DNA of 44,910 nucleotides from contig JAAFKJ010000021.1 of NCBI GenBank assembly GCA_021399395.1, positions 1 to 44,910 on the forward strand, written 5' to 3'. This DNA comes from Candidatus Heimdallarchaeota archaeon (GTDB lineage Archaea; Asgardarchaeota; Heimdallarchaeia; Heimdallarchaeales; Heimdallarchaeaceae). The notes beneath the pieces were generated by a model, which saw only the letters and a program-made list of their open reading frames with translations, did no database searches and was not told the origin of the DNA. Both the position numbers and the translations under genes were made by a program. Shown here one piece after another: positions 18,785-36,935 of the stretch (positions are counted from its first letter, which is position 1; each line of letters begins with the position of its first letter).

Positions 18785-19429
18785 ATGGCAACTCCTGAAT
18801 TTGGAACAATTAGTGCAACAAGAATGGAATTACTAAACACTAGAGCCAAAATCCGTTTAGCACAGAAGGGTCATGATCTCTTAAAGGAAAAAATGGATGC
18901 TTTAGTAATTGAACTATACGCCATCAAAGATGAAGTCCGTGAAGCAAGAAAACAAGTTGAAGAAGAATTGAAGATTGCTTATCAATCTCTGGCAAAAGGA
19001 GAAATGGTTATAGGTCCAGATAAGATACGAGATTTAGCACAATATGCACCTTCTGTTTTGGAAATAAATACACAAACAATTAGTATTATGGGAGTTAAAT
19101 CACCCAGATTCATTGTAGAAGAGATTCAAACAGAAGAAGAAATTTTCTATGGTTTGACTAGTTCAAGTGCACAATTAGATCGTGCAATTGTGTATTTTAG
19201 AAAATCGCTAAAGACTCTGATGATAATTGCAGAAAAAATGACACTCCTTGAAAAACTCGCAACAGAGATTAATAAAACCAAAAGAAGGGTCAATGCCCTG
19301 AACTACATATTAATCCCCAAGTTGAGAGCAACAGCTAACTTCATAGCTAGTACTCTTGAAGAACAAGAGCGTGAAACCTTTTCAAGGCTTAAAAGAGTAA
19401 AAGCAATACTTGAAGCTAAGAAACAATAA
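18785..19429 (+). CDS. atpD: A-type ATP synthase subunit D
   Basis: 214 residues, the central rotor stalk subunit that sits in the A3B3 head. The ATRMELLNTRAKIRLAQKGHDLLKEKMDAL start and the C-terminal TKRRVNALNYILIPKLRATANFIASTLEEQERETFSRLKRVK are the two long helices that form the coiled coil. In most archaea it is the last gene of the ATPase operon after A and B; here it is 9 kb from atpA. The proline-rich membrane protein follows after 166 bases. Confidence 0.96.
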   Translation: MATPEFGTISATRMELLNTRAKIRLAQKGHDLLKEKMDALVIELYAIKDEVREARKQVEEELKIAYQSLAKGEMVIGPDKIRDLAQYAPSVLEINTQTISIMGVKSPRFIVEEIQTEEEIFYGLTSSSAQLDRAIVYFRKSLKTLMIIAEKMTLLEKLATEINKTKRRVNALNYILIPKLRATANFIASTLEEQERETFSRLKRVKAILEAKKQ

Positions 19430-19595: not shown

Positions 19596-20615
19596 ATGTC
19601 GATTATAGATTGGTTTGATAAATTTCCACCATTAAGTATGGAAGATAATGGTTTAAAGCTACTTATTTATCTTCTATTGATTTTTACATTTCTAAGTGCT
19701 CTTGCAGTATTTTTAACTACAAGATATTATAGGAAAAAGGATTCGCCTTCACTTTTGGATCTAGATTTCGAATCGGATATACCAACTCCGTCAGATATTC
19801 CTTCTTCAGAAAGAATAGCAATTCTAAATATTGAGAAAGCAAAGTCAATTGCTGCTCAGCGTGCATTATCTGATGCACATAAGAAGAAGGAAGTTAGTGA
19901 AGCAATTTTTGGCAGATTATCCGTCAGATATGCATCTGATGTTAAAAAGATCGAAGACGAAATTGAAAAAACAACAAGAGAAGCAGAAGTCTCTCAATTA
20001 GAAGAAGAATTGAAGAAGATGCAAGGCGATTACTTAAGCAAAATTAAAGGAGAAGAAAAAATTGAAGTTACTCCTTCAACTCCTTCATCCGCACCACCAG
20101 CACCACCAATGCCTGCTGTAGGATCAGCTCCAGCACCACCAATGCCTGCTGTAGGATCAGCTCCAGCACCACCACCAATGCCCACTCCAACTCCAATAGC
20201 TCCTAAACCTGCTAAACCTCCAAAGCAAAAGAAGGTAAAGAAGAAGAAGAAGGATAAAAAAGGAGTTACTCCACCAACACCTCCAACTCCCGCACCTACA
20301 CCATCAGTGTCTGGAACAGCTGCACCTCCACCTCCACCTGGAGTTACTTCAACACCCCCAGGAACAGCAGTGCCTGCACCACCAATGCCATCACCTTTAC
20401 CAGGAGCACCAGCAAGTACTCCCTCAATACCAGCACCAACAGTGCCAACACCTAAACCACCTGGACTAGGAGCACCAGCACCAGCCGTAGCTCCACCAGC
20501 AGCTGGAGAAGGAGAAGGGGATTTATTTGCAAAAAGTACTTCAATTGCTGCACTTCGAAAAGAAATGCTCAAGGAACTAGATCGTCTCAAGAAATTCATG
20601 AGCGAACAACAGTAA
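19596..20615 (+). CDS. Membrane-anchored proline-rich coiled-coil protein, unknown
   Basis: No family recognised. The 339 residues show clear modules. Residues about 19-42 (GLKLLIYLLLIFTFLSALAVFL) are a single transmembrane helix followed by RYYRKK, placing the C-terminus in the cytoplasm. Residues about 70-155 are a charged coiled coil. Residues about 160-310 are very rich in proline, with PPPPP and PAPPPMP runs, an 11-residue PPMPAVGSAPA tandem repeat and a basic KKKKKDKKG patch. The end (TSIAALRKEMLKELDRLKKFM) is an amphipathic helix. The polyproline tracts resemble profilin- or SH3-binding segments. Asgard archaea have profilins and actins, so a membrane-cytoskeleton link is a testable idea, not a finding. 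Confidence 0.75.
   Translation: MSIIDWFDKFPPLSMEDNGLKLLIYLLLIFTFLSALAVFLTTRYYRKKDSPSLLDLDFESDIPTPSDIPSSERIAILNIEKAKSIAAQRALSDAHKKKEVSEAIFGRLSVRYASDVKKIEDEIEKTTREAEVSQLEEELKKMQGDYLSKIKGEEKIEVTPSTPSSAPPAPPMPAVGSAPAPPMPAVGSAPAPPPMPTPTPIAPKPAKPPKQKKVKKKKKDKKGVTPPTPPTPAPTPSVSGTAAPPPPPGVTSTPPGTAVPAPPMPSPLPGAPASTPSIPAPTVPTPKPPGLGAPAPAVAPPAAGEGEGDLFAKSTSIAALRKEMLKELDRLKKFMSEQQ
20103..20168 (+). repeat. 33-bp perfect tandem duplication in proline-rich gene
   Basis: Two identical 33-base units (20103-20135 and 20136-20168) each encode PPMPAVGSAPA. The perfect identity, with no synonymous differences, suggests a recent slippage expansion of the polyproline region. Confidence 0.9.
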
Positions 20616-20717: not shown

Positions 20718-20772
20718 CATCATTAGTTTTAAAAAATTCCAATGTAATAATATTATTAGAGTGAGTTTTCAT

Positions 20773-21507
20773 ATGAATCAAAAGGAACAACAATTCCAAA
20801 AGCAAGAAAAAGAGAAACTCTTAGCTGCACAGAAAGCTGCTAAAGAATTCATTTATGACGAATTTGCAGTAGGAGTAGGCACAGGCTCTACTGTTAAGTA
20901 TTTTATTCAAGAGCTTGGGATACTTATTGAAGAGGATGACTTAGAGATCATTACAGTTCCTTCATCTAATGAAACTCACCTTGAATTAATAAAGGCTGGA
21001 CTACCAGTGGGAACTCTGGTAGAATATCCTGAACTTGAAGTCTATGTTGATGGTACAGACATCATAACAGAGGATTTTGTTCTTATCAAAGGCGGTGGAG
21101 GAGCATTTACTAAAGAAAAAATCCTTGCAAGTGCATCTAAAGAGTTCATTGTAATTGCAGATAGTTCGAAATATCCAAAAGATCTCATTAGCCAACCTGT
21201 ACCGGTTGAAATAATCAGCGACGCCGTAAACACCGTTATCCAACCAATCTTTTGTTTGGGGGGTGAGTTAAGAATTAGACATGGAACTGGAAAAGTGGGT
21301 CCTGTGATTTCAGACAATGGTAATATAATAGGGGATATCTATTTTCAGAAATTATATAATCCAGTTGTAATTGAAAAAGAACTAAACAACATACCTGGTA
21401 TTGTTGAAAATGGATTGTTCCCAAAAGGTCCACATAAAATCTTAATTGGACAAGAAGATAAAACAAAAATTATTGTCAGAGAGATTGATACTAAATTAAA
21501 GCACTGA
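20773..21507 (+). CDS. rpiA: Ribose-5-phosphate isomerase A
   Basis: About 244 residues from ATG 20773. GTG 20761 is in frame but lies in a GTGAG ribosome-site-like stretch and is probably not the start. RpiA interconverts ribose-5-phosphate and ribulose-5-phosphate. Motifs are VGVGTGSTVKYFI, TVPSSNET, VDGTDIITEDFVLIKGGGGAFTKEKILA (the catalytic Glu/Lys loop), IVIADSSK and the C-terminal GIVENGLF. It overlaps the convergent PIN-ATPase gene by 17 bases. Confidence 0.95.
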   Translation: MNQKEQQFQKQEKEKLLAAQKAAKEFIYDEFAVGVGTGSTVKYFIQELGILIEEDDLEIITVPSSNETHLELIKAGLPVGTLVEYPELEVYVDGTDIITEDFVLIKGGGGAFTKEKILASASKEFIVIADSSKYPKDLISQPVPVEIISDAVNTVIQPIFCLGGELRIRHGTGKVGPVISDNGNIIGDIYFQKLYNPVVIEKELNNIPGIVENGLFPKGPHKILIGQEDKTKIIVREIDTKLKH

Positions 21508-35672: not shown

Positions 35673-36935
35673 ATGAGGAAAAATTCGTTACTACTTATTT
35701 TCATACTTATATCCACTATTTCACTATCTTTTTACTCTACAAATTTGGATGCATTTCCAACTCAGAATAGTGAAAATCCTATTAGAACCTATGCAGTTCT
35801 TTTTGATCAATTCCCGCATGACGTCAATGGAACTACCATGTGTTCTGCAGTAGAGCTTAAAGATGCCCTTCTAAATTTGGGATGGTCTGGAGATAATATC
35901 TCTTTATTTTTGGGTGAAGAGAATTTGACCAAAACCATTTTCTTAGAACAATTGAACTATCTTGAACAAGTAGTCGATGAAAATGATTTGGTTTTCATTT
36001 ATATTATGGCCCATGGACACACCTATTGTCGAGATGTTCTTGAGTTTAATAGTTGGTTTCAAATCGAGTTTTTCCAAATAAACACAAAAAACAAAGTATA
36101 TCTTATGGATTCTTGTTACGCAGGAGAATTCGTTAAAAATTTCTATGATCAGTGTTTTGCACTGGGGAGTGTAGCTGAGCATGAAATTGCAATAGGTTAT
36201 TTTCCAGAAGAAAATGGTACATGGATTCTTAGTGAGCCACCTTTCGCAGGAGGTATTTCTTCGCACTTCTGGGCAAAAGCACTTACAAACATTGAAGCAG
36301 ACACATCATTAGATGGTGTTGTGAGTTTGGAGGAAATGCACACATATTCTTTACCAAACATACGAGCTTGTTATAATGAGACCTTTGAACTTTATCCCGA
36401 TATGGCAGATTATGCAGAAAACATAGCTGGCTATACAGAAAATTACCCATATCCCAAAATAATGAATAATCTTCATTATGAGTTAACTCTAAATGCAACA
36501 GAATTCAGATTAAACAACGAACAATATGTTTGGGAGGATGATATAGAATCTCCAAAAATACGTTCTCAAAATATAATCTATTTTACGGAGGAAGACGATG
36601 TTATAGACATAACCTTTCAGATAAGCGATCAATCTTCTTTTGATTATTATTGTTATGTGGATGGCCAATTGGATCCATTTGCTACTGGAAGTCATGCTGC
36701 AACAGGAGAGGAATATTGGAATTTCACCTATGAATTATCAATTCAATCAAATAATAATTACAATGTCTCGTTAGCAGCTGTAGATGAATGGTCTAATAGA
36801 AACGAAAATTTCACCCTTGTGGTCTACAATGGCGAATCCAACACTGCCAATTATGAGTTTACAGTTTCAATTTTAGTATTTTTAGTATTTCAAATTGTCA
36901 TTTTACGTTTGAAAGCAAGAAAAAGAAAAGATTAA
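35673..36935 (+). CDS. Exported clan CD (legumain/caspase-like) cysteine peptidase
   Basis: 420 residues with an N-terminal signal sequence (1-27, hydrophobic core LLLIFILISTISLSF). The peptidase domain has IRTYAVLFDQFPHD, then catalytic His114 in FIYIMAHGH and Cys148 in VYLMDSCYAGEF, the His-Gly and Asp-x-Cys layout of clan CD peptidases such as legumain (C13). A beta-rich domain follows (about 285-385), then a transmembrane helix (about 394-413) and a basic tail. The enzyme would face outward. Several NxS/T sequons fit a glycosylated surface protein. The ribosome site GAGGTG precedes ATG 35673. Family C13 versus C14 cannot be decided. Confidence 0.8.
   Translation: MRKNSLLLIFILISTISLSFYSTNLDAFPTQNSENPIRTYAVLFDQFPHDVNGTTMCSAVELKDALLNLGWSGDNISLFLGEENLTKTIFLEQLNYLEQVVDENDLVFIYIMAHGHTYCRDVLEFNSWFQIEFFQINTKNKVYLMDSCYAGEFVKNFYDQCFALGSVAEHEIAIGYFPEENGTWILSEPPFAGGISSHFWAKALTNIEADTSLDGVVSLEEMHTYSLPNIRACYNETFELYPDMADYAENIAGYTENYPYPKIMNNLHYELTLNATEFRLNNEQYVWEDDIESPKIRSQNIIYFTEEDDVIDITFQISDQSSFDYYCYVDGQLDPFATGSHAATGEEYWNFTYELSIQSNNNYNVSLAAVDEWSNRNENFTLVVYNGESNTANYEFTVSILVFLVFQIVILRLKARKRKD

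Follow-up and report, generated by a model that had tools for sequence, protein, structure and literature searches.

What does a membrane-anchored protein with a proline-rich arm do in an Asgard archaeon, and may it tie an actin system to the membrane? This question is raised by a gene located in the window, i.e., the whole stretch of 44,910 nucleotides analyzed here, which belongs to Candidatus Heimdallarchaeota archaeon. The initial annotation, made from the sequence alone, described the gene product as a polyproline protein without known domains, built like recruiters of profilin or SH3 proteins (FH1 or Ena/VASP regions). The features of the gene and its product are as follows:

19596..20615, + strand: gene of the tethered polyproline-arm protein, 339 aa, ATG start; the ORF is intact and has orthologues
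19653..19718, + strand: single TM helix, about residues 20-41, indicated by hydropathy and AlphaFold2; probable N-out/C-in orientation
19803..20051, + strand: helical hairpin, residues 70-152, predicted to be cytoplasmic, indicated by AlphaFold2 and conserved across TM-type members
20067..20528, + strand: disordered proline-rich arm, residues 158-311, 35% Pro, indicated by the sequence and AlphaFold2
20205..20261, + strand: Lys-rich patch, residues 204-222, visible in the sequence and, in the alignment, variable between orthologues
20325..20339, + strand: PPPPP, residues 244-248, the sole run of five Pro codons in the assembly
20514..20612, + strand: C-terminal helix EGDLFAKSTSIAALRKEMLKELDRLKKFMSEQQ, a putative docking element, the most conserved part and found Asgard-wide (profile, AlphaFold2, alignment)

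The lone hydrophobic segment of the protein (residues 22-40, Kyte-Doolittle mean 2.78) is directly followed by RYYRKK, and the positive-inside rule suggests that the N-terminus lies outside and the C-terminus inside the cell. In the AlphaFold2 model, for which 27 homologues were used, the TM helix spans residues 18-47 and is followed by a helical hairpin (70-96/102-152, pLDDT 92-95), a disordered region (153-311) and a C-terminal helix (312-338, pLDDT about 80). The single TM helix with positive residues after it, the polyproline region of about 150 residues with PPPPP, PAPPPMP and a Lys patch, and the terminal amphipathic helix had all been correctly recognized in the initial annotation; its coiled coil is indeed a helical region, although the term helical hairpin describes it better. 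The lack of a known domain was also confirmed, as the searches for relatives of the whole protein in PDB, Pfam and NCBIfam returned only noise. A secreted or wall protein was rejected, because the positive residues after the TM helix place the C-terminus in the cytoplasm by the above rule.

The arm comprises 54 Pro in 154 residues, with few acidic residues, and contains PPPPP, PAPPPMP and PPAPPMPA (within the stretches SAPPAPPMPAVG and AAPPPPPGVT, the latter around PPPPP). The sequence CCNCCNCCNCCNCC occurs only once in the 2.82 Mb host assembly (both strands), and this single occurrence encodes PPPPP of the arm. A run of five Pro was reached in 40% of shuffles of the 35%-Pro tract. It is the proline composition of the arm, not the arrangement of prolines, that is exceptional, and the proline runs, being no longer than composition predicts, were rejected as a sign of function.

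The gene was found in all 23 genomes of the same family (its orthologues include those of Heimdallarchaeota MAGs AB_125 and Ca. Heimdallarchaeum endolithica PR6), without stops and with every module kept. Across these genomes the mean pairwise identity was 77% for the TM helix with the hairpin, 60% for the arm, whose length varied from 85 to 154 residues in this comparison, and almost 100% for the C-terminal helix. Over the last 32 residues, 20 of the 23 genomes encode the same peptide, while most of the codons vary (2-7 kinds per site), which points to a constraint acting on the protein, and above all on the helix. Since the frames are open in all relatives and the codons vary under a nearly fixed peptide, the gene is real, and an artefact or a wrong frame was rejected. 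The main point missed by the initial annotation is that the C-terminal helix is the nearly invariant part of the protein, distributed throughout the Asgard archaea.

This distribution became apparent when a profile built from the C-terminal helix alone was searched in 228 Asgard genomes, 170 of which gave a match, several of the genomes without a match being incomplete. There is mostly one match per genome, in an ORF of about 190-350 aa, and the helix (consensus LRxEMLxELxRLKxxM) is nearly always placed at the C-terminus, after a proline-rich arm. Members of most families were assigned to three architecture classes: (i) TM helix, hairpin, arm and helix, in the Heimdall-class families as well as f9, f12, f17, f19, f20, and f22; (ii) soluble N-terminal helices, arm and helix, in f8, f10, f11, f18, f23, f27, f28, and f29; and (iii) about ten TM helices followed by the arm and helix, in f5, with tandem duplicates in the genomes G049 and G055. 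In the fetched f16 locus (L140), no family member was found. The members of the third class are exemplified by:

L153:3789-7684, + strand: f5 ten-TM-type members with C-terminal arm and helix
L154:706-4474, - strand: f5 ten-TM-type members with C-terminal arm and helix

The profilin of f10 is near-identical to 5zza, the f9 profilin is closest to 7pbh, and those of f8 are close to 5yed/5zzb; judging from sequence, f8, f9, and f10 probably represent the Loki-, Thor- and Odin-type, respectively. As no name for the family was found in our literature searches, we consider it an unnamed family that spans the Asgard archaea, is essentially single-copy and has the C-terminal helix as its defining feature.

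The genomic neighborhood of the gene in the window comprises:

18785..19429, + strand: V-type ATP synthase subunit D, upstream neighbor, conserved within the genus
20761..21507, + strand: ribose 5-phosphate isomerase A (RpiA), downstream neighbor, whose adjacency is kept in many TM-type Asgard lineages

RpiA adjoins the TM-type members of f1, f3, f5, f9, f12, f17, f19, and f20, often together with the same two further genes, and this conserved adjacency indicates that these members are orthologous. The V-type ATP synthase subunit D gene is not thought to be part of the same system. It is also worth mentioning that the window contains two tandem genes of the bactofilin family (PF04519; 5285-6190 and 6209-7105, + strand), i.e., of polymer-forming cytoskeletal proteins. 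Moreover, positions 35673-36935 (+ strand) encode a protein of 420 aa whose N-terminus is signal-like and which has a hydrophobic segment at its C-terminus; it is possibly caspase- or legumain-like, and Pfam gave no match for it.

The helix motif also occurs inside unrelated Asgard proteins, as listed below, which would suit a portable docking helix:

L157:3370-4596, - strand: Ras-like small GTPase of one f23 genome, with the LRDEMLRELDRLR motif, a stretch of polyproline and a tail that contains Cys/His
L199:3365-5041, - strand: Sec23/24-like VWA protein of one Loki genome
L198:4745-6688, + strand: LRR protein
L202:4105-4848, + strand: DUF4140-like protein

The helix itself (a 20-mer of it in the window protein is SIAALRKEMLKELDRLKKFM) carries I317, L320, M324, L328, L331, and M335 in a 3-4-4 spacing and conserved R321, E323, E327, R330, and K332, as in salt-bridged coils, and its only PDB matches, all weak, were GCN4-type and repeat coiled coils. 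Such a hendecad pattern could belong to an oligomerisation element similar to the VASP tetramerisation helix, in which case the protein would be a self-assembling hub with the arm spacing the clusters from the membrane. However, we regard this as quite improbable, given the small length of the helix (about 20 aa), its near-invariance on all faces, which exceeds the need of a generic coiled coil, and its presence inside unrelated proteins, which is more typical of a docking motif.

A candidate partner for the helix is suggested by the gene order in the Lokiarchaeota-like f8. In 19 of the 19 fetched loci, representing 8 genera, an actin paralogue is encoded co-directionally downstream of the family gene, within 6 kb; in four loci the two genes lie within about 200 bp of each other, and elsewhere the cluster is extended by a PIG-L gene and a small helix-turn-helix-like gene:

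L131:8028-11510, + strand: Loki-type cluster of the family gene, PIG-L deacetylase, actin paralogue and small helix-turn-helix-like gene, co-directional, present in many genera

The f8 genomes encode 4-6 actin homologues each, and by our own estimate the chance of an accidental gene-actin linkage arising once in f8 is about 1%. This linkage, seen in the Loki-type homologues, supports an actin link. It should be stressed that the actin of the cluster (L131:9925-11037 in the above locus) is a separate paralogue sharing about 43% identity with canonical Asgard actins. Because clear orthologues of it were restricted to f8 and f23, it is excluded as the universal partner of the family; in f23 it is located about 43-70 kb from the family gene (two cases checked). 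No actin gene was seen near the loci of TM type, the window among them.

The host is a Heimdallarchaeum-type Asgard archaeon, as its orthologues indicate, and it fits the expectation of actin and profilin, since its genome contains three actin-family genes (two eukaryote-like by score and one Arp-like; a Heimdall actin lies at G000:C48:1239-2348) and one profilin gene (G000:C23:4951-5298, locus L077). The host profilin was recognized by the Asgard profilin profile (E 7e-15), with the Odin profilin 5zza as the best PDB match (1e-9), and was missed by the Pfam profilin model PF00235; the Heimdall profilin is divergent, and counts of Asgard profilins based on Pfam alone would be too low. The profilin of Heimdallarchaeota LC3 binds the VASP peptide PPPAPPLPAAQ weakly (Kd of 0.3 mM without its extension and 3.3 mM with it), and the Thor profilin, like that of LC3, binds VASP polyproline; for the profilins of Loki and Odin, polyproline binding was reported to be absent (PMC8410842). 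The family homologues in Loki and Odin carry proline-rich arms.

PPAPPMPA in the arm of the window protein is close to the above VASP peptide, and this site, PPPPP and the host profilin would all be compatible with a bare FH1/VASP-like polyproline tether, i.e., a protein that only recruits profilin and for which the helix is accessory. This explanation is very improbable, as the arm, with its composition-driven proline runs, is the least conserved module. Moreover, the f17 and f19 members (in G066 and G078, respectively) kept the TM helix, hairpin and C-terminal helix but lost the prolines, which constitute only 11% and 6% of their arms, despite the presence of profilin in G066 and in the genus of G078 (g27), so profilin recruitment is not the universal job of the family. 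According to the initial annotation, orthologues deprived of the proline tract would speak against its interpretation; the tract is kept in 23 of 23 same-family genomes but is proline-poor in f17 and f19, so the profilin reading is partly refuted on this ground. The proposed recruiter layout agrees with the VASP-like PPAPPMPA and the host profilin but finds no counterpart in domain content, since Pfam scans revealed neither EVH1 (window protein and 14 relatives) nor FH2 of formins (window protein and relatives), and eight C-terminal helices did not match WH2 at E-values up to 10. The initial interpretation as a whole is therefore partly supported.

The explanation we prefer, still tentatively and as one that falls somewhat short of probable, is a membrane-tethered scaffold of the actin system, with a build like that of arcadin-2 and, in part, of Ena/VASP. 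In the host lineage, the TM helix and the hairpin would anchor the protein at the cytoplasmic side of the membrane, and the arm of about 150 residues would reach into the cytoplasm, ending in the amphipathic helix. This helix may dock on an actin-family protein, as the C-terminal helix of arcadin-2 does in the crenactin groove. In the lineages with proline-rich arms, PPAPPMP and PPPPP could add recruitment of profilin or profilin-actin in the Ena/VASP manner, so that helix docking would come first and profilin recruitment second, in some lineages only. The overall job would presumably be to attach the actin system to the membrane and to regulate it there. Against this scaffold speak the lack of actin genes near the TM-type loci, the restriction of the Loki-cluster actin to f8 and f23, the degenerate arms of f17 and f19, the reported absence of polyproline binding in Loki and Odin profilins, the weak affinities reported for Asgard profilins (0.3-3 mM), and the fact that the folds nearest to the hairpin, though not significantly, are those of ESCRT-I headpieces; comparison of the C-terminal helix with WH2 and other actin-binding families also gave no match. 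That one ancestral gene gave all Asgard lineages a proline-arm coupler whose helix docks on filaments or monomers of the actin family, membrane-anchored in Heimdall, Thor and others, and soluble and co-transcribed with an actin paralogue in Loki, seems doubtful.

The main rival of the actin scaffold, unlikely but serious, is a membrane-trafficking hub, in which the hairpin would be an ESCRT-I headpiece- or CdvA-like element, the arm a spacer, and the helix a dock for a protein of the ESCRT or small-GTPase pathway. Foldseek matched the hairpin to ESCRT-I headpiece chains (6vme, 2f6m, 2f66, and 2p22, probability 0.92-0.99) and to CdvA (9s9g, probability 0.66), but every E-value exceeded 0.3, and helical hairpins are generic, with HIV gp41 matching as well. 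A similarity between steadiness-box and CdvA hairpins has been noted (PMC10936438), and one of 15 members (L121) gave a weak Pfam match to the CdvA coiled-coil domain PF18822 (E 0.0023), which is below the cut-off; Asgard archaea were, however, reported to be without CdvA domains (PMC8970359). An Arf-family GTPase is the next gene in f6, and the helix motif is present in the above-mentioned Ras-like GTPase and Sec23/24-like protein, yet no ESCRT gene was seen adjoining the family gene, and inspection of the helix revealed no MIM1 pattern.

Asgard actin, profilins and gelsolins are known, but no described membrane linker or polyproline ligand was found in our literature searches. The family bears on the way in which actin is attached and controlled at Asgard membranes (in protrusions, shape and division), and in these archaea, the closest to us, it may link the membrane to the cytoskeleton. 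A universal coupler, if it did exist, would be the first known link of this kind between membrane and actin in the Asgard archaea, and possibly a forerunner of, or a parallel to, regulation of the Ena/VASP and WASP types. In any case, the family provides a concrete candidate, Asgard-wide and essentially single-copy, whose short peptide lends itself to direct tests against Heimdall and Loki actins and profilins.

Compared with known systems, the family resembles several; membership in Ena/VASP, WH2, formins and CdvA was rejected on the outcome of the searches for EVH1, WH2, FH2 and CdvA domains. With CdvA and the ESCRT-I steadiness-box hairpins it shares a helical hairpin of similar size beside a flexible region and a presumed role in membrane recruitment, but the hairpin similarity is not significant, and it differs from CdvA in having a TM helix and no N-terminal PRC barrel (no Pfam match); the ESCRT-I steadiness-box/Mod(r) hairpin likewise had no Pfam match, and at the C-terminus the family has a helix in place of an E3B/BWI or MIM2 peptide. 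ZipA-type bacterial division tethers combine, as here, an N-terminal TM helix, a flexible proline-rich linker and a C-terminal docking element, but the family lacks a ZipA domain and its putative docking element is a single helix. In WASP/WH2 proteins, polyproline also precedes an amphipathic helix with LKK, although the helix-to-LKK spacing of WH2 is about three residues longer. Ena/VASP proteins share the proline arm with PPAPPxPA sites, the short C-terminal amphipathic helix after it and the presumed membrane-associated use; the family differs by its own TM helix and hairpin, and no GAB/FAB motifs were identified. The arcadin-2 linker is not described as polyproline, no TM helix was reported for arcadin-2, and this crenactin regulator of Pyrobaculum is likened to the family by layout, not by sequence. 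In arcadin-2, the core is followed by a linker that is unstructured and unconserved and then by a conserved C-terminal helix; the protein is encoded with an actin, and by its last 17 residues it binds the hydrophobic groove of crenactin and depolymerises filaments (PMC5173319). The same order of an unconserved linker and a conserved C-terminal helix, visible in the module identities and the AlphaFold2 model, characterizes the family, and its Loki-type members, though not the TM-type ones, are likewise encoded with an actin homologue.
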